Of a stretch of 64,000 bases of DNA, positions 1 to 10,434 are shown one piece after another (within the stretch, counting starts at the first letter, position 1; each line of letters starts with the position of its first letter). The stretch is taken from positions 1-64,000 of the forward strand of contig CAIOFF010000016.1 of assembly GCA_903857495.1 (NCBI GenBank). The letters run 5' to 3'. A program made the position numbers and the translations under genes. This stretch comes from an uncultured Holophagaceae bacterium. Its GTDB lineage: Bacteria > Acidobacteriota > Holophagae > Holophagales > Holophagaceae. A model generated the notes under the pieces. That model saw only the letters and a program-made list of their open reading frames with translations. It was not told the DNA's origin and made no database searches.

Positions 1-497
1 GCTGTGGCCCACCAAGAGCGTCCGCTCAAGTACACTGGATGGAGATTGGAGGCTCGGTAAATATTGGCTGTGGCCCACCAAGAGCGTCCGCTCAAGTACA
101 CTTCCCCTTTTCCGTCGAGGACTTATCGAGGCGCTGTGGCCCACCAAGAGCGTCCGCTCAAGTACACTCAAGGTCTTCTTGAGCCGCTCCACAAGCTGGC
201 TGTGGCCCACCAAGAGCGTCCGCTCAAGTACACTAGTGAAGCCATCGAGATCATCAAGACCAAGGCTGTGGCCCACCAAGAGCGTCCGCTCAAGTACACT
301 TTCGCGGCCTGGGCCATCACGGCCCGCTTGCTGTGGCCCACCAAGAGCGTCCGCTCAAGTACACTTGTGGGAAGTTCCTCGACCTCGACCTGGCCGCTGT
401 GGCCCACCAAGAGCGTCCGCTCAAGTACACTAGGCGGCGTGCCACCATTTGCGTAGAGCGGGCTGTGGCCCACCAAGAGCGTCCGCTCAAGTACACT
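1..497 (+). CRISPR. Type II-C CRISPR array, 8 repeats and 7 spacers (left end cut)
   Basis: Eight identical 36-bp repeats lie at 1-36, 67-102, 133-168, 199-234, 265-300, 330-365, 396-431 and 462-497. The seven spacers between them are 30 nt, except the fifth (301-329), which is 29 nt. The repeat opens with GCTGTGGCCCACC and closes with CAAGTACACT. Plus is the likely crRNA strand, because the anti-repeat at 4991-5027 reads as the reverse complement and belongs to a plus-strand RNA with its own terminator. The TACACT at the repeat end resembles a -10 box, as in Neisseria II-C repeats that carry internal promoters. The array therefore runs towards the 3' end of cas2. It starts exactly at the window edge, so more repeats and any leader are probably outside. 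No repeat shows end degeneracy. Confidence 0.98.
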
Positions 498-501
498 CCA
501 T

Positions 502-529
502 CCTCCCCCAAATGCATATAAGGGGGAGG
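502..529. terminator. Hairpin between array and cas2
   Basis: A perfect 8-bp inverted repeat (CCTCCCCC at 502-509, GGGGGAGG at 522-529) encloses a 12-nt AT-rich loop. It sits 4 nt after the last repeat and 18 nt past the cas2 stop, between two convergent transcription units. It lacks a U-tract on either strand, so it may be a weak bidirectional terminator or an RNA-processing structure. Confidence 0.45.
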
Positions 530-547
530 CTTAGTGTGATGATCGGA

Positions 548-880
548 CTACATGAGTTGCAGTAGTGGGGGTTCTTCTTCGACCTGGACACGGCGTTTTC
601 CTCGAAAGACTTCCATCTTGGCGAACTGACGGTCTGTAAGGGCCAACACTCGGACCTCGCCTTCTTCCGGGACCCAGCGCCTGACCCGTTTCCTGTGGAC
701 ATCAGCGGCATCCTCGCTCTCACAGAATCGGCCATACACCGAGTATTGCAACATCATGAAGCCATCCTTGAGGAGAGCCTTTCTGAACAGGGAATAGTTC
801 CGTTTCAGTTCGGCGGTCTCCACGGGCAGGTCAAACATGGCCAGCAACCACATGGCGCGGTATCCAGAGAGGTCGGTCAT
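548..880 (-). CDS. cas2: CRISPR-associated endonuclease Cas2 (type II-C)
   Basis: This 110-aa protein has the normal Cas2 size and the first-strand motif MWLLAMFDLPVET (residues 10-22), whose Asp is the conserved metal-binding residue. Cas2 dimerises and bridges two Cas1 dimers in the spacer-integration complex. Its ATG overlaps the cas1 stop as ATGA (877-880), so it is translationally coupled to cas1. An internal Met at residue 10 just before the motif is an alternative start, but the coupling favours the longer form. It is the last gene of the cas9-cas1-cas2 operon. No csn2 or cas4 lies next to it, which fits subtype II-C. Confidence 0.95.
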   Translation of the reverse strand: MTDLSGYRAMWLLAMFDLPVETAELKRNYSLFRKALLKDGFMMLQYSVYGRFCESEDAADVHRKRVRRWVPEEGEVRVLALTDRQFAKMEVFRGKRRVQVEEEPPLLQLM

Positions 881-1797
881 GTGTCGGGAAAGATCAACTT
901 CTTGGTGTTGCCTGTCAGTGCTGCGGCGAGGCTCTGGGCGCTCTTCAACACGGCATGAGACAGGCGGAGGCTTTCCTTTTCCATACTAATCCGAGTATGA
1001 AGCACGCCCAACAGTTCACCCCGGATCTCCTGGCTCATTTTTGCCTTGGCTTCGTGGCTATTAAGCAACTGGACCACGACGGCATCCACAAAGGGGCGGT
1101 AGGGTTCCATCAGGTCATCAGCCAGAGGGAAGTTACTGTATTTATTGTGATGCTGGAGGCCCAATGCCGGGTGGAGCCCACAGGCGCAAAGGCTTCGAGC
1201 TACCTGAGCCCTGAGCACTGCATAGCCGTAGTTCAGGAAGCGGTTGGCATCATCAGCCTCCCGGTCGCGCCTGAACTCAGGGTCGCCAATGAGCGCCCTC
1301 CAATACCTTCTGGCAGCTTGTGCCTCAAGGTTGCCCTCGTCCCCAGACCGGATCTGCCTAGCCATGATTCCAAGCCCTTCATCCTTGCCTCTTACTAGCT
1401 TCAACAGGGAGGCCTGGGCCTTCACCTTTGCCTTGACGATCTGCTGCCAGAGACGCTTCTTCAGTGGGAGGGATGCACCTGCCTGGCGGGCCATTCGTTC
1501 TGCCTGAATGAAGTGTCCCTGAAGAGGCAGGAGAAGGCCTGCTGGTTGGTGTTTTGTGTCGCAGACCAGCACGGCACCTCCCACCATGGCAATGGCTTGA
1601 AGCGCAGCAGAAGAGATCTGTGCCTGGGGGTGGGAGAGGACAAGCACACCCAGATCCTCCAGCGGAATCCGGACAGGCTCCCTCCCAGGTTGGTCGATCT
1701 GTAACGACTCCAGGGCCAGGTGGATGCGGGCTGGTGACTCGGCGATCTCTAAGACCCGATCAGTCACGGGAGCTTCGGGACAGTCCAATAGGGTCAA
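877..1797 (-). CDS. cas1: CRISPR-associated endonuclease Cas1 (type II)
   Basis: This is a 306-aa integrase of the adaptation complex, which captures protospacers and inserts them into the array with Cas2. The metal-binding residues are visible: E158 in GNLEAQAARRYW, His216/217 in GLQHHNKY, and acidic residues around D227-E231 in ADDLMEPYRP. The length is typical of type II Cas1. The start overlaps the last 38 nt of cas9 in another frame, and the stop overlaps the cas2 start, so the three genes form one polycistronic unit. All active-site residues are intact, so spacer acquisition could be functional. Confidence 0.96.
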   Translation of the reverse strand: MTLLDCPEAPVTDRVLEIAESPARIHLALESLQIDQPGREPVRIPLEDLGVLVLSHPQAQISSAALQAIAMVGGAVLVCDTKHQPAGLLLPLQGHFIQAERMARQAGASLPLKKRLWQQIVKAKVKAQASLLKLVRGKDEGLGIMARQIRSGDEGNLEAQAARRYWRALIGDPEFRRDREADDANRFLNYGYAVLRAQVARSLCACGLHPALGLQHHNKYSNFPLADDLMEPYRPFVDAVVVQLLNSHEAKAKMSQEIRGELLGVLHTRISMEKESLRLSHAVLKSAQSLAAALTGNTKKLIFPDT

Positions 1798-4700
1798 TTT
1801 GGGTTTTTCTCAGGCTCAATTCTCTGGCCCTAGATGGTGCCACAAGGAAATAAGCCCCCACTTTTTCCTGCTCCTGCTTCAGCCTCGCATCTGAATGGGA
1901 AGCGAGACCGATTTGGCAGTTGGTTTTTACTGTTCTGACCCATGCCGCCTTCACAACACCTTCTTCTTCGTATTGCACGGTATCCCCTGAACGAAGCGAC
2001 ATGACGAATCCATCCTCTCGCCTGATCACGGCTTCTCCTGCGGCGTGTCTTCGAAGGGCCTCGAACAGAGAAACCACATCCGCCTTCCAAATGGACCTCC
2101 CCTTGGCATCCAGGGCTTCATGGATGGTCATATGGTGATTCGCATCTGACTCCACATGGCGAAGCCGGTGGTCCTGACCAACAGGAATGACAGTTCCGGA
2201 TACCTTGATTCGGACCTTGTGGATGGGGATATGGCGACCATCGCGACAGAGCAAGTGGGGGTGGTCCTTTGGTTCCTTGAATGCCTTTTTGGGCTCGGTC
2301 TGCCTCATTTCGGCTAGTCGCGCCTCCACCCTTCCACGAACCGAGTCATCCACGATCTTGGCTATATCCTTGGGACCAAGGTCCTCCACGCGAATCCGCT
2401 GGATCAGGCTTGCCCCCTCGACCCCGTAGATCGTCTCCTTGTGGATGCGTCCCTGTAGCTTCCTGCGGACCCGACGGCTAATGGTGACTGTTTCCAGAGC
2501 GGCAGCCGCGTCCTTGGAAAAGTCGGCCCAGGGGAGGCTGAAGGTGGAGAAGCGGGATCGCCTTGCCTCCCAACCGTTCTTGGATGCGTCTGAAAGGGCT
2601 TTGAGGGTCCCAGGGCTGGTCACCGCGATGACCAGTGCATCCAGGGCATGGTGCCGGTGGTCCTGACGGTTCTTCTCTCCACCACCAAGTAGAGGATTCA
2701 GTTCCCACAGGCCCCGGAGCATTGATGTCACCTGGCCCTTTGAGGCATGAATCCTTCGGCCTTCTTGATCCCAGAGCCCCCCATATAGCAAGGACATGTA
2801 TTGGCAAGCCAGTCGACTGGCGTGGGCTGTGTCATTCAACTGAGAGGAAATGAAATCCCCGTCCAGTTCCGTCTGGCGGAATCGCTGAAGTTTTACGATC
2901 TTCCCCGGTCCGTCCTTCCAGTTCTCGATTCGCCCAAGGATTTCGGCCATGACGCCAGGCGTGTATGCCTCCATTGGGGCCAGATTTCTCTTCACATTCC
3001 GGTTGTGTTCCGCCCAGCAAAGAGTCTTATTGGCGAATGAATCATCCAGGGACTTGCTGAAAGGAATGATGTGTTCGACATCCCATGGACTGCTTGCCTG
3101 GAAGACCTCGGTAAGAGTGATTGGCTTCCCGGTGTAGGGGCAGAGCGCCATTGGGCCACCGCATTCCTGCCACAGGAGGTATTTCTCGATGTCTCTGCCC
3201 TTTGGGTCGGCCTTGAAGGGGCGAATGGCCTCGCGAGCTGTCTCACGGTCCTTGGTCCGGTCAGCAATCTTCTTGGAGATGGCGGCGCGAACATCCCGGC
3301 TCTTCTTCAGATCCCTAGCCAGTTCGATGTGGATGGCAACGGGTTTCCCCCACGCACGAATGACTGCATGAACCACCTTCCGAAGTTCGGTCAGGGTTCT
3401 GGAAACCATTGGATTTCTTAGGGCAGGGAAGGCTTCGATGACCCGAGGGAGCTTGTCTACGGGAGTTGGAGTCGGCTCTGCGCCATAGACCTGCTTAACG
3501 GCTGTGGAGTAAGGGGTGCCTTGTTCAAGCCACGGAAGAAGCTTTTCGACCGCCTGGCGAGAGATGGCGAGGTAACCATCTTCTAGTGCCGTGTCAGCGA
3601 GGAGGGCTGCCTCTGATTTGGAAAGGCTCCAGTCCATCTGGAGGGTAGAGGCAAAGGCATCTGGATCTTCGGCGTGGCGCAGCGCCTTGACTAGGGCTTC
3701 CTGATGATCTGCATCCAGGCGGGACCAAAGCCCTGGGACTGCCTTATCGATGCGAGCAACCGTGCGGTTCCCCGGAAGGCCTTTGGCAGCCCCTTCGGCT
3801 AGGTTCAGCTTCCCCCGGCGACCGATCCCCCACTGAGACTTAATGGATGCAAAGGACACATCCCCTCTACCGAGTTCACCGATGAGCCACTGCCGTTGCT
3901 CTGGCGTTGCTTCGGACACCGTTCCGTCGTTCCACTGGACCTTCAGGTCATTGACCTTCTGTAGGATGCGGAACAACTGGGCCTTGGGATGGGCCAAAGC
4001 CATCCTTCGCGGGGCCTTGTAGATGGGGACCAGGCTTCCCTTCTCTAGGGGTCGACCATCGCGACGATGGGTCTTCTTAACCTTTACCCAACGGCCCTGC
4101 TCCAGTGAACACCAGCCAATCAAGTGGTCGGCGCTCTGCAAGGGTCTCTGGAAGAAGATGGCCCTGTGGAGCCTCTCCTTCAGTTCTGGGGTCAGCAAAC
4201 AGGGATGGTGCTTCCCTTGCTCGGCCCAGATGATCTCGAACTCCGCCTCAATCATGTTTCGGGAGGTGTAACGACCCCTGATCCTGTTTGGGCCTGTCCC
4301 AGCATGGTTCTCTGGATCGTGCTTGGCGAACAGAGTTCCCAGAGTGCTCACCCCCTGGTCAGCCATCTGGCGCCGAAGTGCCTCAATGCTTCCACGGACG
4401 ATCCCTGTCTCTTCATCCGCCTCCTTGCGCGCTGCCTTCCGGTTGCTCTTGAATCCCCTACGCTGCCCCAAGTGGTAAAAGGCCCGGCCGAGGGCGAAAG
4501 GGTCGAGTGGGCCTGAGATGGCTTTGGCACGGAGTGAGTAAGGCAAGCGGACTGGATCTCCCCCAGCAACCAGCAGATCCCCATCTAGGTCCTTGAGGGT
4601 CTGAAAGATTCGAGTGGCCAAAGGCTTCTTCGGGTCACTTGGTATCGGTAGCAGTCCCCCAGCAACCAGAGCGAGGAAGAGTGTGTGCATCCGCCCGGCG

Positions 4701-4984
4701 CGTCGGGCCAACCCCCTTCGCATCCCCCGAGCCTGCCGACGCTCTACACCACGGCTTTCATCCTTCCCGCGTTCAATGTCTCCGCTGGTGCCTGGATCGA
4801 AGATGCGGGAACCCATGCCAAGGATGGAATGAGGAACCCAAGCCTTCGACTGAGGGTCCCATCCCGCTTCAAGGGCACACCACCCAACGGAGGCCGTTCC
4901 AAGATCCAATCCAAGGACAACCCCGACTTCACCAGGAAAAGGCACAAAAACCCCCTTGTAGTCAACTACGGTTGATGGAATCAT
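1760..4984 (-). CDS. cas9: CRISPR-associated endonuclease Cas9 (type II-C, 1074 aa)
   Basis: Cas9 is the RNA-guided double-strand DNA nuclease. The length matches compact II-C enzymes such as the roughly 1080-aa Neisseria protein. Visible motifs are RuvC-I GLDLGTASVGW with D27, an Arg-rich bridge helix at about 78-101, RuvC-II IHIELARDL with E554, HNH WDVEHIIPF with H638, and RuvC-III HHALDA with H779 and D782. All nuclease residues are intact. The C-terminal 200 or so residues should form the PAM-interacting domain; PAM choice cannot be read from sequence. The ATG at 4984 gives a 26-residue lead-in before D27, longer than in Neisseria. The upstream region has little Shine-Dalgarno character and is the complement of the tracrRNA anti-repeat, so the cas9 leader is itself a degenerate repeat. 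cas9 is first in the operon. Confidence 0.97.
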   Translation of the reverse strand: MIPSTVVDYKGVFVPFPGEVGVVLGLDLGTASVGWCALEAGWDPQSKAWVPHSILGMGSRIFDPGTSGDIERGKDESRGVERRQARGMRRGLARRAGRMHTLFLALVAGGLLPIPSDPKKPLATRIFQTLKDLDGDLLVAGGDPVRLPYSLRAKAISGPLDPFALGRAFYHLGQRRGFKSNRKAARKEADEETGIVRGSIEALRRQMADQGVSTLGTLFAKHDPENHAGTGPNRIRGRYTSRNMIEAEFEIIWAEQGKHHPCLLTPELKERLHRAIFFQRPLQSADHLIGWCSLEQGRWVKVKKTHRRDGRPLEKGSLVPIYKAPRRMALAHPKAQLFRILQKVNDLKVQWNDGTVSEATPEQRQWLIGELGRGDVSFASIKSQWGIGRRGKLNLAEGAAKGLPGNRTVARIDKAVPGLWSRLDADHQEALVKALRHAEDPDAFASTLQMDWSLSKSEAALLADTALEDGYLAISRQAVEKLLPWLEQGTPYSTAVKQVYGAEPTPTPVDKLPRVIEAFPALRNPMVSRTLTELRKVVHAVIRAWGKPVAIHIELARDLKKSRDVRAAISKKIADRTKDRETAREAIRPFKADPKGRDIEKYLLWQECGGPMALCPYTGKPITLTEVFQASSPWDVEHIIPFSKSLDDSFANKTLCWAEHNRNVKRNLAPMEAYTPGVMAEILGRIENWKDGPGKIVKLQRFRQTELDGDFISSQLNDTAHASRLACQYMSLLYGGLWDQEGRRIHASKGQVTSMLRGLWELNPLLGGGEKNRQDHRHHALDALVIAVTSPGTLKALSDASKNGWEARRSRFSTFSLPWADFSKDAAAALETVTISRRVRRKLQGRIHKETIYGVEGASLIQRIRVEDLGPKDIAKIVDDSVRGRVEARLAEMRQTEPKKAFKEPKDHPHLLCRDGRHIPIHKVRIKVSGTVIPVGQDHRLRHVESDANHHMTIHEALDAKGRSIWKADVVSLFEALRRHAAGEAVIRREDGFVMSLRSGDTVQYEEEGVVKAAWVRTVKTNCQIGLASHSDARLKQEQEKVGAYFLVAPSRARELSLRKTQIDPIGLSRSSRD
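4956..4984 (+). promoter_or_regulatory. Candidate tracrRNA promoter inside the cas9 5' end
   Basis: TTGTAG (4956-4961) and AATCAT (4979-4984) are separated by 17 bp. They would place transcription start near 4991, exactly where the anti-repeat begins. The boxes are only moderate matches to sigma-70 consensus (3/6 and 4/6). The element lies within the first codons of cas9 on the opposite strand. Confidence 0.4.
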
Positions 4985-5625: not shown

Positions 5626-5700
5626 TGGTTGGGGAGGAAGGATTTGAACCCTCACCTGACGGTACCAGAAACCGTTGTCCTACCATTAGACCACTCCCCA
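5626..5700 (-). tRNA. tRNA-Gln (anticodon CTG)
   Basis: The 75-nt gene includes an encoded CCA (complement at 5626-5628). The acceptor is TGGGGAG with CTCCCCA. The anticodon stem is ACGGT/ACCGT around loop TTCTGGT, giving anticodon CTG at 5668-5666. The T arm is GGTTCAAATCC. It lies 29 nt upstream of tRNA-Glu in the same direction and has a promoter just upstream at 5716-5743. Confidence 0.96.
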
Positions 5701-5792: not shown

Positions 5793-6341
5793 ATGGCGGA
5801 ATCAATCAAGCTGGCTTATTTCATGGCGGTCAAAGAGGGAGCGAGCTACCTGGGGGGGCTGCTGGTCACGGACACCTCGGGCATCCCTCTCGACTTCCGC
5901 TACACGGAGCCCATCACGCCCACCCACCTGCAGAGCATCCTCTACGGCAAGTCGCTGGAGCCCCACCTGAAGGAGGAGGTCATCCAGAAGACGCTGCTGA
6001 AGGAGCTGAAGACGCCGCCGGACCTGTTCATCCTCAGCGCGACGGAGCTGGCGGGCGGCTGGTCCGGGGACGCGAAGTGCCCGGTGCTGGCGGTGCAGAA
6101 GTCCCAGGAGACTCCGCTGGTGAAGGTGGGTACCACCTTCCGGGCGGGTCCCCGAGACATCCTGCTGCAGCTGGCGGAGGGCGCGGCGCCCCTGCGGGTG
6201 ATGTTCGCGGCCTCGGTGGATGCCGCCGCCCAGGAGCAGGCCATGGCCAAGCTGCTGGAGGCGGGCTACCACATGGACCTGACCGAGCCCCTCGAGCGGG
6301 TCACTGTGGCGCTGCAGAGCCTGGTCGTGAAGGGCTCCTGA
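5793..6341 (+). CDS. Conserved protein of unknown function, first gene of signalling operon
   Basis: This 182-aa soluble protein begins MAESIKLAYFMAVKEG. I do not recognise a named family. It shows no signal peptide or membrane helix and is rich in hydrophobic beta-type segments (SYLGGLLVTDTSGIPLDFRY) that recall small sensory or cyclase-associated domains. The start at 5793 is chosen because AGAGGTG lies 6 nt upstream; the reading frame stays open further left, but that extension translates the tRNA-Gln gene antisense and is spurious. Its stop overlaps the next start as TGATG. Four genes follow in the same direction, so its job is probably tied to the FHA-GGDEF/kinase module. Confidence 0.8.
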   Translation: MAESIKLAYFMAVKEGASYLGGLLVTDTSGIPLDFRYTEPITPTHLQSILYGKSLEPHLKEEVIQKTLLKELKTPPDLFILSATELAGGWSGDAKCPVLAVQKSQETPLVKVGTTFRAGPRDILLQLAEGAAPLRVMFAASVDAAAQEQAMAKLLEAGYHMDLTEPLERVTVALQSLVVKGS

Positions 6342-7126
6342 TGTTCAGCCGGGTGAAGGGCGCCATGGCGGACGCGGCGGAGACGCTGCGTCGGACTTTT
6401 GCCGGGCTCCCTGTCGTGACCGTGGTCCCGGAGCACTTCCACCCCGGGAGCCATCGCGGAGCCCTGCTCGCGGTCGATCCCAGGTCCGGCCTGGAGCTCC
6501 TGGCCGCTACGGGCCAGGGGGCCCGGCTCTTCCGGGAAGGGGTGCCGGCCCTGGCGCTGCCCGCCTTCGAGGCGAAGCTGCAGGCCGAGGCGGGCTGGGC
6601 GAGCTGGGGGGCCGCGGCCGAAGTGGTCCGCATGACGCCCCTGGAAGCGGGGCGCGCCGCGCAGGTTGCGGTGCCCCCCCTCCCGCTCCAGGCCCGGACG
6701 CTGGGCCGGGTGGAGCCGCCGGCCTGCCCCAGCACGCGCCGCATCGCGGAGCCGCTGGCCCGGCCGGGCACCCGGCGCCTGGATCCCAGGCTTGGCAACG
6801 TGAGCGCTCAGGCTGGCCTGGAGGCCATCCTGGGACTGCCCATCCCCATCCGCGCCGAGGACATCCAGCGGCTGCCCAAGGGCCTGTGGATGCGCTACAG
6901 CCTGCAGCTGGTGCGCGGCACCGGGGAGAACGTCCGGAACCTGGAGGTGCTCGGACTCTTCCGCATCCCGCGCAAAGGGGTGGCGGACCTGCGCCACGAC
7001 CCCCGGCAGAGCCGGATCCTGATCCGCCTGGAGGCCTCGGCGGTCCGGGCGCCCCGGGAACCCTTCATTCTGGCCCGGCGCAAGGACGACGGAGCGTTGC
7101 TAAGCTGCTTCGTGGAGGGCTCGTGA
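6341..7126 (+). CDS. Protein of unknown function coupled to FHA-GGDEF genes
   Basis: This 261-aa protein (MFSRVKGAMADAAETL) has no signal peptide or membrane segment and no family that I recognise. The middle part (about residues 115-150) is rich in Pro and Arg and contains Thr-Arg-Arg repeats, possibly a linker and conceivably a phospho-threonine target. The C-terminal 90 residues look folded (LWMRYSLQLVRGTGENVRNLEVLGLF, then ILIRLEASAV). The start is set by the TGATG overlap with the preceding stop, and the end overlaps the next GTG start. A phosphothreonine ligand for the neighbouring FHA domains would be a reasonable but unproven role. Confidence 0.75.
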   Translation: MFSRVKGAMADAAETLRRTFAGLPVVTVVPEHFHPGSHRGALLAVDPRSGLELLAATGQGARLFREGVPALALPAFEAKLQAEAGWASWGAAAEVVRMTPLEAGRAAQVAVPPLPLQARTLGRVEPPACPSTRRIAEPLARPGTRRLDPRLGNVSAQAGLEAILGLPIPIRAEDIQRLPKGLWMRYSLQLVRGTGENVRNLEVLGLFRIPRKGVADLRHDPRQSRILIRLEASAVRAPREPFILARRKDDGALLSCFVEGS

Positions 7127-8061
7127 AGCGCAAAGGCACCCCAGGGCCCCTTTCTTCAGCGGATGAGACCCTCCCCGGTCTGCCGGAGATGGAGACCGTG
7201 GTCCGTCCCAAGACGCTGGACGAAGGCCACCTGGCGCCAGCGGAGTGGGCTTTTGTAGCCTATGCCGGCGCGGCGCTGGGCCGGGTGTTTCCGCTGCCCA
7301 GGGGTGAGCTCCTGCTGGGGCGCGCCTCGGACTGCACGGTGGCGCTGGTGGATGGCGAGGTGAGCCGGCACCACGTCCGCCTCCAGGTGACCGAGGCTGG
7401 GATCCAGCTCGAGGATCTGGGCTCGACCAATGGCACCCTGGTCAACGGTGACCTGGTGAGAGGCCTCGTGCAGCTCGGCGTCGGCGACCGGCTGTCCCTG
7501 GGTGGGCACGTGCTCAAGCTCGTGTATCTGGATCCGCTGGAGCGCGCCTTCCACGAGACCCTGCTGGACCTCAGCACCCGGGATGCCCTGACAGGGCTGG
7601 CCAACCGCAGCAGCACCCTGACGGAGTTCCAGAACCGGTTCGGCCTGAGCTTCCGCTACAGCCGCCCCCTTTCGGTAGTCATCTGCGACCTGGACCTGTT
7701 CAAGCAGGTCAATGATGTCCATGGCCACGGCGGCGGGGATCTGGTGCTGCGCGCCTTCGGAGAGCGGCTGCAGGCGGCCCTCCGGGAGGCGGATCTGGCC
7801 GGACGCATCGGGGGCGAGGAGTTCCTCATGGTGCTGCCCGAGACGGATCTGGCGGGCGCGCGCATCCTGACCGAGCGTCTGCGCAAGTCCATCGCCGGGA
7901 AACCCATCCTCCTGCCCACCGGGAGCCTGAGCATCACCTGCAGCATGGGCGTGGCCCAGCGGACGGTGGCGGACCTGGAGGCGGGCCACTTGCTGGCCCG
8001 GGCCGATGCCGCCCTCTATCGCGCCAAGGCCCAGGGCCGGAATCGCGTCTGCGAGGACTGA
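7123..8061 (+). CDS. FHA domain diguanylate cyclase (GGEEF)
   Basis: This 312-aa protein combines an N-terminal forkhead-associated domain (about 55-130) with a C-terminal GGDEF domain (about 145-312). The FHA hallmarks are GR at 66-67, SRHH at 81-84 and STNG at 101-104, the residues that bind phosphothreonine peptides. The cyclase signature GGEEF is at 230-234 with an inhibitory-site RxxD (READ, 221-224) five residues before it, so c-di-GMP synthesis with product inhibition is expected. It starts with GTG at 7123 in a GTGA overlap with the previous gene. It is soluble, and output is probably controlled by docking to proteins phosphorylated by the kinase three genes downstream. A near-paralogue follows. 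Confidence 0.92.
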   Translation: MKRKGTPGPLSSADETLPGLPEMETVVRPKTLDEGHLAPAEWAFVAYAGAALGRVFPLPRGELLLGRASDCTVALVDGEVSRHHVRLQVTEAGIQLEDLGSTNGTLVNGDLVRGLVQLGVGDRLSLGGHVLKLVYLDPLERAFHETLLDLSTRDALTGLANRSSTLTEFQNRFGLSFRYSRPLSVVICDLDLFKQVNDVHGHGGGDLVLRAFGERLQAALREADLAGRIGGEEFLMVLPETDLAGARILTERLRKSIAGKPILLPTGSLSITCSMGVAQRTVADLEAGHLLARADAALYRAKAQGRNRVCED

Positions 8062-8073
8062 ATGGAACTCCGC

Positions 8074-8079
8074 TAGACT
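8074..8079 (+). promoter_or_regulatory. -10-like TAGACT box seven bases before an ATG
   Basis: TAGACT at 8074-8079 ends 7 nt before the ATG at 8087, so transcription would begin at the start codon, giving a leaderless message. No good -35 is visible. The surrounding stretch TGGAACTCCGCTAGACT is nearly repeated upstream of the Trm112-like gene at 44275. Confidence 0.4.
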
Positions 8080-8086
8080 CTCGTCG

Positions 8087-9019
8087 ATGCCCCTCGAACC
8101 CACCCCCCCCGAGCTGCCTCCTTGGGACCCTGCCGCCGCGCAGGTGGAATCGGATCTGTTTGAGGATCCCGCCGCCCACCAGTGGGTGCTGGTCCGCTAC
8201 GTGGGGCAGCCCATGGGGGAAGCCATTCCGCTGTCGACGCTGGGCCTGGAGGTGGGCCGGGATCCCGAGAACGGGCTCTGCCTGCTGGAGCCCCAGGTGA
8301 GCCGAAGGCACGCCCGTCTGGAGGTCTCGCCGGACCGGGTCTCGGTGAGCCTCTGGGATCTGGGGTCCACCAATGGTGTCTTCGTCAACGGCCGACGGCT
8401 GCCGGTCACGGCCGCTCCCCATCGGCTGGTGGCTGAAGACGTGGTCCGGGTGGGCGGCCATGCCTTCAAGCTCAAGCACATGGATGCCCTGGAGCGGCGC
8501 TACCACCAGGACATCGTCGCCCGCACCACGCTGGATCCCCTCACGGGCGTCCATAACCGGGCCACCATCCTGCAGCAGCTCGAGTCCCACGTGGAGCTGG
8601 CGCGCCGCCACCAGCGACCGCTGTCGCTGCTCCTGGCGGACCTGGACCGGTTCAAGCAGGTCAACGACACCTTCGGTCACCGGGCGGGAGACCAGGCGCT
8701 GGAGGCCTTCGGCGGGCTGCTGCGGCGGCGGCTCCGCAGCTCGGATCCGGTGGGCCGCCTGGGTGGCGATGAGTTCCTGGCGGTGCTGCCGGAGACCTCC
8801 GTGGACCTGGCCCTCAGTGCCGCCGAGGACTTCCGCCGCTCGCTTGCTGAGCGGCCCCTGACCCTGGAGGATGGCCGGGCGATCCTGGTGACCTGCAGCC
8901 TGGGTGTGGCGGAACTGAAGCTGGAGGATGCCTGCGGGGGATCCCTCCTGGCGCGGGCCGATGTGGCCCTCTACGCCGCCAAGGACCGGGGCCGGAACCG
9001 CGCCGTCGCCGCGCCATGA
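8087..9019 (+). CDS. FHA domain diguanylate cyclase (GGDEF), second copy
   Basis: This 310-aa paralogue of the preceding protein has the same FHA-GGDEF order. FHA hallmarks are GR at 57-58, SRRH at 72-75 and STNG at 94-97. The catalytic motif GGDEF is at 226-230, with an I-site RxxD (RSSD, 217-220). The 25-nt gap before its ATG holds a -10-like TAGACT and no ribosome site, so it may also be transcribed from its own leaderless start. Its stop overlaps the kinase start as ATGA. Divergence from its neighbour suggests an old duplication with different phosphopeptide preferences. It should make c-di-GMP in the cytoplasm in response to Thr phosphorylation. Confidence 0.93.
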   Translation: MPLEPTPPELPPWDPAAAQVESDLFEDPAAHQWVLVRYVGQPMGEAIPLSTLGLEVGRDPENGLCLLEPQVSRRHARLEVSPDRVSVSLWDLGSTNGVFVNGRRLPVTAAPHRLVAEDVVRVGGHAFKLKHMDALERRYHQDIVARTTLDPLTGVHNRATILQQLESHVELARRHQRPLSLLLADLDRFKQVNDTFGHRAGDQALEAFGGLLRRRLRSSDPVGRLGGDEFLAVLPETSVDLALSAAEDFRRSLAERPLTLEDGRAILVTCSLGVAELKLEDACGGSLLARADVALYAAKDRGRNRAVAAP

Positions 9020-10434
9020 ACGGGCAGCGTCCGCCCGCCCAGATCGGCAGCGTGCGCCTGCTGGAGCCCTTGGGCGAAGGGGGCATGGCCCTGGTGTTCC
9101 GGGGCGAGGACCGCTTCCGTCCCGAGCTCTCCTGCGCCGTGAAGCTGCTGCGCCCGGAGGTGCACCGGGACAGGGATTTGGTGCGCCGCTTCCTGCGCGA
9201 GGGCGAGGTGCTGGAGCGCCTCTCGCACCCGGCCCTGGTGGAGATCTACTCCTTCGGGACGAGCAACGGCTGGCCCTACCTGGTGATGGAGCTGCTGCCC
9301 GGCGGCAGCCTCAAGGCCTGCCGGGGCGAGGCGCCCGCCGCCCTGGTCCGCCGCCTCGTTCCGGTCTGCGGCGCCCTGGGCGTGGCCCACGCCGCGGGCG
9401 TGGTGCACCGGGACCTCAAGCCGTCGAACCTCCTCTTCGCCGCCACGGGCCAGCTCAAGGTGACGGACTTCGGCGTCTGTTTCTGGGAAGGGGAGGAGGG
9501 CCTCACCCGCGCCACCCGCAGCCAGATGGTGGTGGGCACTCTGGGCTACATGGCCCCGGAACAGCATGGCGATCCCCGGCGGGTGGATGGCCGCTGCGAT
9601 GTCTATGCCCTGGGTGCGGTGCTCTACGAGTTCACCACCGGGCAGCCCTACGCCCAGGTGCAGATCGCCCCGGCGGCCTGCCGACCCGGCTTTCCCCCTC
9701 GCCTCGCCGGGCTGGTGCTGCGGGCGCTCCAGCCCGATCCCGCCAGGCGCCTGCCGGACATGGCCACCTTGGGCGGGGAGCTGGCGACCTGGCTGGAGAG
9801 CGCCGAGGCCGCGGGCTGGGGCGAGGAGCCCCTCCCGGGGTTTTCCGCCCAGGAGCGGGAAGCCGCCACGGTGGCGGGGCCGCGGCGGGATGAGGGCTTC
9901 AGCGCGCGGCTCGGCCCCTACCTGGATGCCTTGGCCACGGGGCAGGTGGGCGTCCGGCGCGCTGCCGCCGATGGCCTCGTCGCGGCCGTGCGGGACGGCG
10001 ACGGCCCCTGGCTGGCGGAGGCCCTCACGGCGGCCCCGGCGAGCGCCCGTTTTGCCCTGGCGCGGGCCCTGGGCAAGGTCGGTGGAGAGCTGGCCCTGGG
10101 GCCGCTGCTCACCTTGCTGCCGGATCCCTATGCCCAGCGCGAGGCCGCGGAGGCTGTGGCGGAGCTGGCCCTCCGGACCGGCCTGATCCAGCCGGCGCTC
10201 AAGGCCCTCCACGAGCCCGGGATGGGGGCGGCCTGGCGGTGGCCGGCCCGGGCTTGCCTCGGGGACGAGTCCTGGTGCAGGGCGCTGCTGACGGCCTGGG
10301 GCAGCCTGGCGCCGCCCTTCCGCATCCAGGCCCTGGAGGCCGCCCTGCAGCTGCCCGACAACCTGCGGACGCTGGTGAAGCTGGCCACCGCCGATGCCGC
10401 CGGGAAGGCGCGGGCGCTCTGGGAACAGCTCTGA
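9016..10434 (+). CDS. Hanks-type Ser/Thr protein kinase with C-terminal HEAT-like region
   Basis: This 472-aa kinase has a complete catalytic core: Gly-rich loop LGEGGMALV (19-27), ATP-binding K43 in CAVKLL, catalytic loop HRDLKPSN (131-138), DFG (151-153) and APE (180-182). The second half (about 300-470) is Ala/Leu-rich with helical repeats resembling HEAT units (for example SARFALARALGKVGGELALGPLLTLL) and probably acts in protein docking. No transmembrane helix is present, unlike PknB-type receptors. It is coupled by ATGA to the second FHA-GGDEF gene, so it is the obvious source of the phosphothreonines read by the two FHA domains. It closes the operon; the next gene is convergent. Confidence 0.93.
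   Translation: MNGQRPPAQIGSVRLLEPLGEGGMALVFRGEDRFRPELSCAVKLLRPEVHRDRDLVRRFLREGEVLERLSHPALVEIYSFGTSNGWPYLVMELLPGGSLKACRGEAPAALVRRLVPVCGALGVAHAAGVVHRDLKPSNLLFAATGQLKVTDFGVCFWEGEEGLTRATRSQMVVGTLGYMAPEQHGDPRRVDGRCDVYALGAVLYEFTTGQPYAQVQIAPAACRPGFPPRLAGLVLRALQPDPARRLPDMATLGGELATWLESAEAAGWGEEPLPGFSAQEREAATVAGPRRDEGFSARLGPYLDALATGQVGVRRAAADGLVAAVRDGDGPWLAEALTAAPASARFALARALGKVGGELALGPLLTLLPDPYAQREAAEAVAELALRTGLIQPALKALHEPGMGAAWRWPARACLGDESWCRALLTAWGSLAPPFRIQALEAALQLPDNLRTLVKLATADAAGKARALWEQL

Follow-up and report, generated by a model that had tools for sequence, protein, structure and literature searches.

What connects a serine/threonine kinase, two diguanylate cyclases and two unnamed proteins that are encoded in a single tight block of genes? 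The question is raised by a contig of an uncultured Holophagaceae bacterium of soil and sediment (GenBank assembly GCA_903857495.1, contig CAIOFF010000016.1), of which positions 1 to 64,000 were analysed (hereafter the window). Judged by its relatives, this Holophagaceae DNA is Geothrix-like. An open reading frame (ORF) reading of the window places five genes, A-B-C-D-E, at 5793-10434 on the + strand. We lean slightly towards viewing this operon as a cytoplasmic phospho-threonine switch for cyclic di-GMP (c-di-GMP), in which the kinase E would act on the tail of the cyclase C. The features concerned are the following (window coordinates; all five ORFs on the + strand).

5793..6341, + strand: gene A, 182 residues, unnamed family, predicted Endonuclease V (EndoV)/PIWI-type RNase H-like fold
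6341..7126, + strand: gene B, 261 residues, family unnamed
7123..8061, + strand: gene C, 312 residues, tail-FHA-GGDEF diguanylate cyclase, GTG start
7195..7197, + strand: codon for Thr25 of C, the invariant tail threonine (41/41 sequences), within [DE]xxTx[VL]Rx[KR]
7312..7503, + strand: FHA domain of C, residues 64-127, Pfam PF00498
7576..8046, + strand: GGDEF domain of C, residues 152-308, RxxD inhibitory site (I-site) and GGEEF intact
8087..9019, + strand: gene D, 310 residues, second FHA-GGDEF protein, FHA 56-123, GGDEF 148-305
9016..10434, + strand: gene E, 472 residues, soluble Hanks-type Ser/Thr kinase with a C-terminal HEAT-like tail
5626..5700, - strand: tRNA-Gln (ARAGORN and Rfam), the usual neighbour on the upstream edge of the operon

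A preliminary description of this DNA had listed two unnamed proteins, two FHA-GGDEF proteins and a soluble kinase with a HEAT-like tail, joined by overlaps at most junctions, and ORF and Pfam analyses bear this out. The stop of A and the start of B share TGATG (1-nt overlap at 6341), B and C overlap by 4 nt in GTGA (7123-7126) and D and E by 4 nt in ATGA (9016-9019), while C and D are separated by a 25-nt gap with no overlap. Pfam recognizes the FHA domains of C and D with E-values of 5e-16 and 3e-16 and their GGDEF domains with 5e-39 and 5e-42; A and B have no match in Pfam or NCBIfam. No transmembrane-like stretch was found in any of the five proteins (top 19-residue Kyte-Doolittle mean 1.41), and none looks membrane-bound. 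The tail of E gives a weak HEAT_2 match (0.0027) under the Pfam cut-off, and HEAT_2 is matched in the tails of three related operon kinases, one each from the families f3, f52 and f28 (3e-8, 6e-5 and 9e-17 among the three). Genes A to E are presumably co-transcribed; promoter and terminator scans found nothing, a result of low informativeness in a GC-rich genome.

The idea of a relay can be sharpened to a single residue, Thr25 of C. Across the 41 C proteins compared, mean identity is 32% over the N-terminal 40 residues, against 68% for the remainder. Thr25 is invariant in this otherwise drifting tail (41/41; identical rows were removed before tail residues were counted), and is surrounded by D/E at -3 (41/41), V/L at +2 (38/41), R at +3 (40/41) and K/R at +5 (41/41). 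Searched for without alignment, the string [DE]xxTx[VL]Rx[KR] occurs in 37 of the 41 C tails, compared to a mean of 0.0 and a maximum of 1 in shuffled tails, a comparison that is only a guide since the sequences are related. By eye, similar T-V-R or T-I-K strings are present in 4/5 rows of FHA-GGDEF tails from f28 and f52.

The closest solved relative of C, over residues 51-309, is DgcB of Bdellovibrio bacteriovorus (6hbz). According to the part of the DgcB report drawn on here, the FHA domain of DgcB (Bd0742) binds its own tail around phosphorylated Thr14, and DgcB with a locked tail is the active enzyme (PMC6733907). Judged from its sequence, C carries the tail features of this type of enzyme, sharing the domain order (FHA before GGDEF in a single chain, by Pfam), the FHA pocket, the I-site and a conserved tail threonine. 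Unlike DgcB, whose activating kinase was not identified as far as that part of the report extends (PMC6733907), C is encoded in an operon with a kinase and two unnamed genes. The same pages describe GarA and OdhI, in which a tail phospho-threonine docks on the protein's own FHA domain (PMC6733907). C resembles these in having a short tail with a threonine and its own FHA domain, on which docking is proposed; however, GarA and OdhI control other proteins by occlusion, whereas in C the FHA domain and a GGDEF enzyme make up one protein. A protein of Sorangium cellulosum (UniProt BE21_29150), known here by its description in that source, unites kinase, tail, FHA and GGDEF (PMC6733907), the same elements as in the operon. 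It does so in one polypeptide, with no A or B mentioned in the portion of the source used, while here the elements are separate genes.

In seven genomes of the genus, all of them 96% complete or better, neither A nor B nor a close match to E is present. Each has one high-scoring FHA-GGDEF protein (>340 bits), which is C, encoded at the same locus in all seven, directly behind tRNA-Glu and tRNA-Gln; A, B, D and E have been lost from these genomes and C survives. The tail threonine of the lone C proteins is kept in 7/7 (ADMPT), and the +3 arginine and +5 basic residue are gone in 7/7. This fits the suggestion that the basic residues would have been read by the lost kinase, although one event is weak evidence.

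Both cyclases are intact at the sites inspected. The GG[DE]EF and RxxD motifs are present in 40/40 C and 36/37 D orthologs (the exception being L046), in agreement with the earlier statement that the catalytic and inhibitory sites of both are intact, and C and D fit the pattern of a predicted c-di-GMP synthase with product inhibition. The FHA columns G, R, S, R, H, S, N and G are invariant in both (C 41/41, D 38/38), and the T of STNG is found in 41/41 C and 37/38 D proteins. A Hypr-type GGDEF domain producing cyclic GMP-AMP (cGAMP) was considered and rejected: the D..GH..GD pattern is present in 40/40 C and 33/37 D proteins, which speaks for ordinary c-di-GMP synthesis.

By its HRDLKP and DFG motifs and its Pkinase match (2e-34), E is classed as a Hanks-type Ser/Thr kinase. 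The two motifs occur in 36/36 E proteins, counted at string level, and the operon kinases displayed keep activation loops that contain threonine. In a kinase tree, 18 sampled operon kinases lie on one side of a branch and 21 other kinases on the other; the support for this branch is 84/97, and 0/500 shuffles were as low. The operon set comprised E of the window, 8 of the 36 Holophagaceae E proteins, five kinases from f3, three from f28 and one of the two from f52. The background consisted of the 16 usable of 20 fetched kinase stretches, plus five kinases from f28 loci; the stretches without a usable domain were L158, L163, L165 and L170, the last an arbitrary stretch.

How might these parts work together? 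The phosphorylation, binding and activation steps, and the role given to A and B, are what we infer from the arrangement. E, probably steered via its HEAT-like tail and the A-B pair, would recognize the +3 and +5 basic residues in the C tail and phosphorylate Thr25. Once phosphorylated, the tail could dock either in cis, on the FHA domain of its own C protein, or on that of a partner C or D, and docking would rearrange the GGDEF domains into a productive dimer that makes c-di-GMP, with the intact I-site capping the output. On the simplest view, D would be a partner that reads phospho-threonine made elsewhere, e.g., on the C tail. A and B would form an upstream sensing or scaffold unit, and are placed there because no other part accompanies the kinase as consistently and because they are also found where the kinase is absent. 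In the preliminary description they were candidate inputs or phospho-targets. A relay from kinase to C tail is favoured because the tail threonine is invariant, the arrangement is that of DgcB, and the basic residues were lost with the kinase. FHA-GGDEF enzymes are known; here a candidate kinase, a probable target threonine and two cyclases stand in one conserved operon, which could show how an orphan kind of signalling enzyme gets switched on.

The operon is widely kept in the family. Among 43 Holophagaceae loci compared (L120 being a duplicate of L064), the order A-B-C-D-E is found in 38; D is absent from two (L037 and L065), and in two more (L060 and L062) the contig ends inside the block. 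Overlaps recur at three of the four junctions (A/B 29/40, B/C 41/41, D/E 35/37; C/D 3/38), and because they do so across these loci the genes are coupled far beyond chance. In 31 of the 32 Holophagaceae loci tested, the 500 nt preceding A contain a tRNA gene, and in 30 of the 32 it is tRNA-Gln. In a sample of 60 genomes including that of the window (37 of the genus, 7 of f3, 9 of f2 and 7 others), A was found in 30 (25/37, 5/7, 0/9 and 0/7, respectively), B in 26, all of the genus, and close E matches (E-value <1e-100) in 27 of the 37 genus genomes. Two genomes, G010 and G021, have B or E without A, and both are incomplete. From the distribution across the genus, A, B and E were therefore gained or lost together. 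The named species Geothrix limicola (L044) and Geothrix rubra (L055) also carry the operon, so the relay can be put to the test with purified parts and gene removals. Open-access literature searches returned no paper naming the operon in its title or the start of its abstract.

Beyond the Holophagaceae, A is present in 34 of 396 genomes in a sample of the acidobacterial phylum. Both f52 loci read A-B-FHA-GGDEF-kinase, one kinase running off its contig. The same order is found in three of six f28 loci, and an FHA-GGDEF gene in five of the six, one of these loci ending inside that gene. At another f28 locus (L112:4334-8020), the place of the FHA-GGDEF and kinase genes behind A and B is taken by genes for Cas6 and Cas_NE0113. 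In f3, which belongs to the same class as the Holophagaceae, a kinase lies close behind A in 5/5 A-bearing genomes, and none of the five contains a better match to E; the gene in B's place encodes 264-267 residues in the four genomes read. The FHA-GGDEF gene of f3 is found away from A (L180-L184), at several loci near mutM-like or spermidine synthase-like genes, labels given by eye. The survey of operon conservation that the preliminary description had called for thus finds the neighbourhood retained in Holophagaceae and several other acidobacterial families. The simplest story is of one old block that gained a second FHA-GGDEF gene in Holophagaceae and lost FHA-GGDEF in f3, the sequence of these steps being a conjecture.

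The family of A is a notable unnamed element of the operon. An AlphaFold2 model built from 29 sequences (predicted local distance difference test, pLDDT, 89.6; predicted template modelling score, pTM, 0.85) has an Endonuclease V as its best Foldseek match (E 1.2e-7). By VIA-align the model matches Archaeoglobus Argonaute with Z 12.8 and a root-mean-square deviation of 3.8 over 165/182 residues, and mouse and Bacillus EndoV with Z 12.6, these matches spanning 165-171 of the 182 residues. A is thus predicted, from its model, to adopt the EndoV/PIWI (RNase H-like) fold. Its sequence sets it apart from these proteins, with no match to PF04493 at E 10 (12 members searched) and an hhalign E-value of 0.28 against three EndoV proteins of f3 genomes, which is no profile support. 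By the PF04493 comparison, A is classed outside the Endonuclease V sequence family. Nor are catalytic carboxylates evident: inspected by eye, the alignment has no conserved aspartate in strand 1 or at the end of strand 4, which we take to be the positions of the EndoV aspartates, and it does conserve D27, D34 and an acid at 39.

Outside the Acidobacteriota, A is present in 40/61 Synergistota genomes. In the loci read (L144, L147-L151, L071 and L072, with Pfam run on L144 and L151 only), chemotaxis and flagellar genes adjoin A. Where these could be read clearly, genes for a sigma factor and FapA, in some cases also CheC and CheD, come before A; a short gene of unassigned kind lies behind it, and S1-domain, DUF501 and argH-like genes follow. 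Divergent A genes in G061 and G524, the only two found among 162 genomes of their class, stand directly before long genes (L115:5298-8429 and L192:6407-9616). Pfam identifies the long gene of G061 as SNF2-Mrr, and its PADLOC matches are ZorD-like; the long gene of G524 has a similar beginning. A recombinase-like ORF lies downstream of the divergent A at L192. A is thus an unnamed family of at least two phyla, Acidobacteriota and Synergistota, and is tied to signalling genes.

Less can be said of B. Its structure model has a low-confidence middle, which is probably disordered, and a compact C-terminal domain at about residues 160-258; a fold search with B returned no PDB match with E <0.3. Single hhalign comparisons between families gave 5e-4 (f1-f3), 0.012 (f1-f28), 0.008 (f1-f52), 1e-4 (f28-f52) and 0.011 (f3-f52), and with such weak values the label "B" refers chiefly to gene position once one leaves the Holophagaceae. 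For the short gene of Synergistota, kinship was considered and is unsupported (f3-Synergistota, E 0.19). Repeated basic P-x-x-R-R-L strings are encoded in the middle of B (window 6690-6790), with extra copies in L050.

The direct relay from threonine phosphorylation to c-di-GMP proposed in the preliminary description stands in part: the conserved neighbourhood, the single group of kinases and the C tail threonine speak for it, and several observations weigh against it. D lacks the conserved tail threonine of DgcB-type tail-gated FHA-GGDEF proteins; T6 occurs in 21/38 D proteins, and the C-type motif in 0/37 D tails, each of which has some threonine. At +3, C has arginine where DgcB has valine. 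No FHA-GGDEF gene stands between A and the kinase in f3, and the kinase must therefore have another job there. Could the FHA domains of C and D instead bind phospho-threonine on the kinase activation loop, A or B, so that the cyclases join a kinase-A-B complex, with docking at the tail threonine being minor or constitutive? The f3 unit, lasting without a cyclase, agrees with this, as do the threonine-containing loops of the operon kinases and a D with a sound FHA domain. We nevertheless hold it to be unlikely, as it leaves unexplained why only the threonine of C and its flanking charges are invariant in a drifting tail. The seven lone C proteins form one clade within the C tree (Shimodaira-Hasegawa-like approximate likelihood ratio test, SH-aLRT, 95) and therefore reflect a single loss event; since C persists in these genomes, it is able to function in the absence of E, perhaps with a different kinase. 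At one Holophagaceae locus (L070) only A and B remain, separated by another gene and with no relay genes, and one f28 locus (L113) has FHA-GGDEF beside A-B with no adjoining kinase. Together with the many further kinase-like matches in these genomes, such loci suit an association through a shared programme only, in which E would serve A-B or other clients and other Hanks kinases would regulate C. To this we give a similarly low probability, given the strict order and overlaps across Holophagaceae, the same gene order in f28 and f52, and the loss of the basic residues in the kinase-less clade. What the f3 loci, the C-only clade and the A+B-only locus do indicate is that the block is modular and that the c-di-GMP relay is one of its outputs, not all that it contains.

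Might A determine what the block responds to? An altered EndoV/PIWI-like A could sense a nucleic-acid or nucleotide ligand and act through A-B and the kinase on c-di-GMP, as a stress or defence sensor whose A-B output in other lineages would be an SNF2-Mrr nuclease. The modelled fold of A, the two divergent A genes before large genes (for one of which the scan gave SNF2-Mrr and ZorD-like matches) and the A-B pair before Cas6 and Cas_NE0113 are in keeping with such a switch. We find it very doubtful, the least likely of these alternatives: fold alone shows no function, A stands beside chemotaxis and flagellar genes with no defence pattern in Synergistota, a plasmid search for A gave no match, and none of 17 pattern stretches from a viral search was confirmed. 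A wider proposal, decidedly improbable when taken as a whole, is that A and B were the original members of a sensor module not described before, with A a catalytically altered EndoV/PIWI-like nucleic-acid or nucleotide sensor and with lineage-specific outputs: kinase and tail-gated cyclases in Acidobacteriota, a chemotaxis/flagellar block in Synergistota and an SNF2-Mrr nuclease elsewhere. If this were true, the window would encode a pathway that starts at an RNase H-like sensor and leads, by way of threonine phosphorylation, to c-di-GMP.

Defence as the principal function of the operon was also considered and rejected, as the PADLOC matches of E are generic-kinase ones (PD-T4-6, MAD6 and others) and A to D have none. 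The neighbouring Cas9 was likewise dismissed as an operon partner, being found at 0/42 of the relatives' loci searched. It belongs to a type II CRISPR-Cas locus that occupies 1-4984 of the window on the - strand, with the following features.

1760-4984, - strand: Cas9 (HNH_4, RuvC_III, Cas9_a)
877-1797 and 548-880, - strand: ORFs positioned as Cas1 and Cas2 would be, labels given by eye
from the window start: CRISPR repeats, 8 repeats at a spacing of ~66 nt

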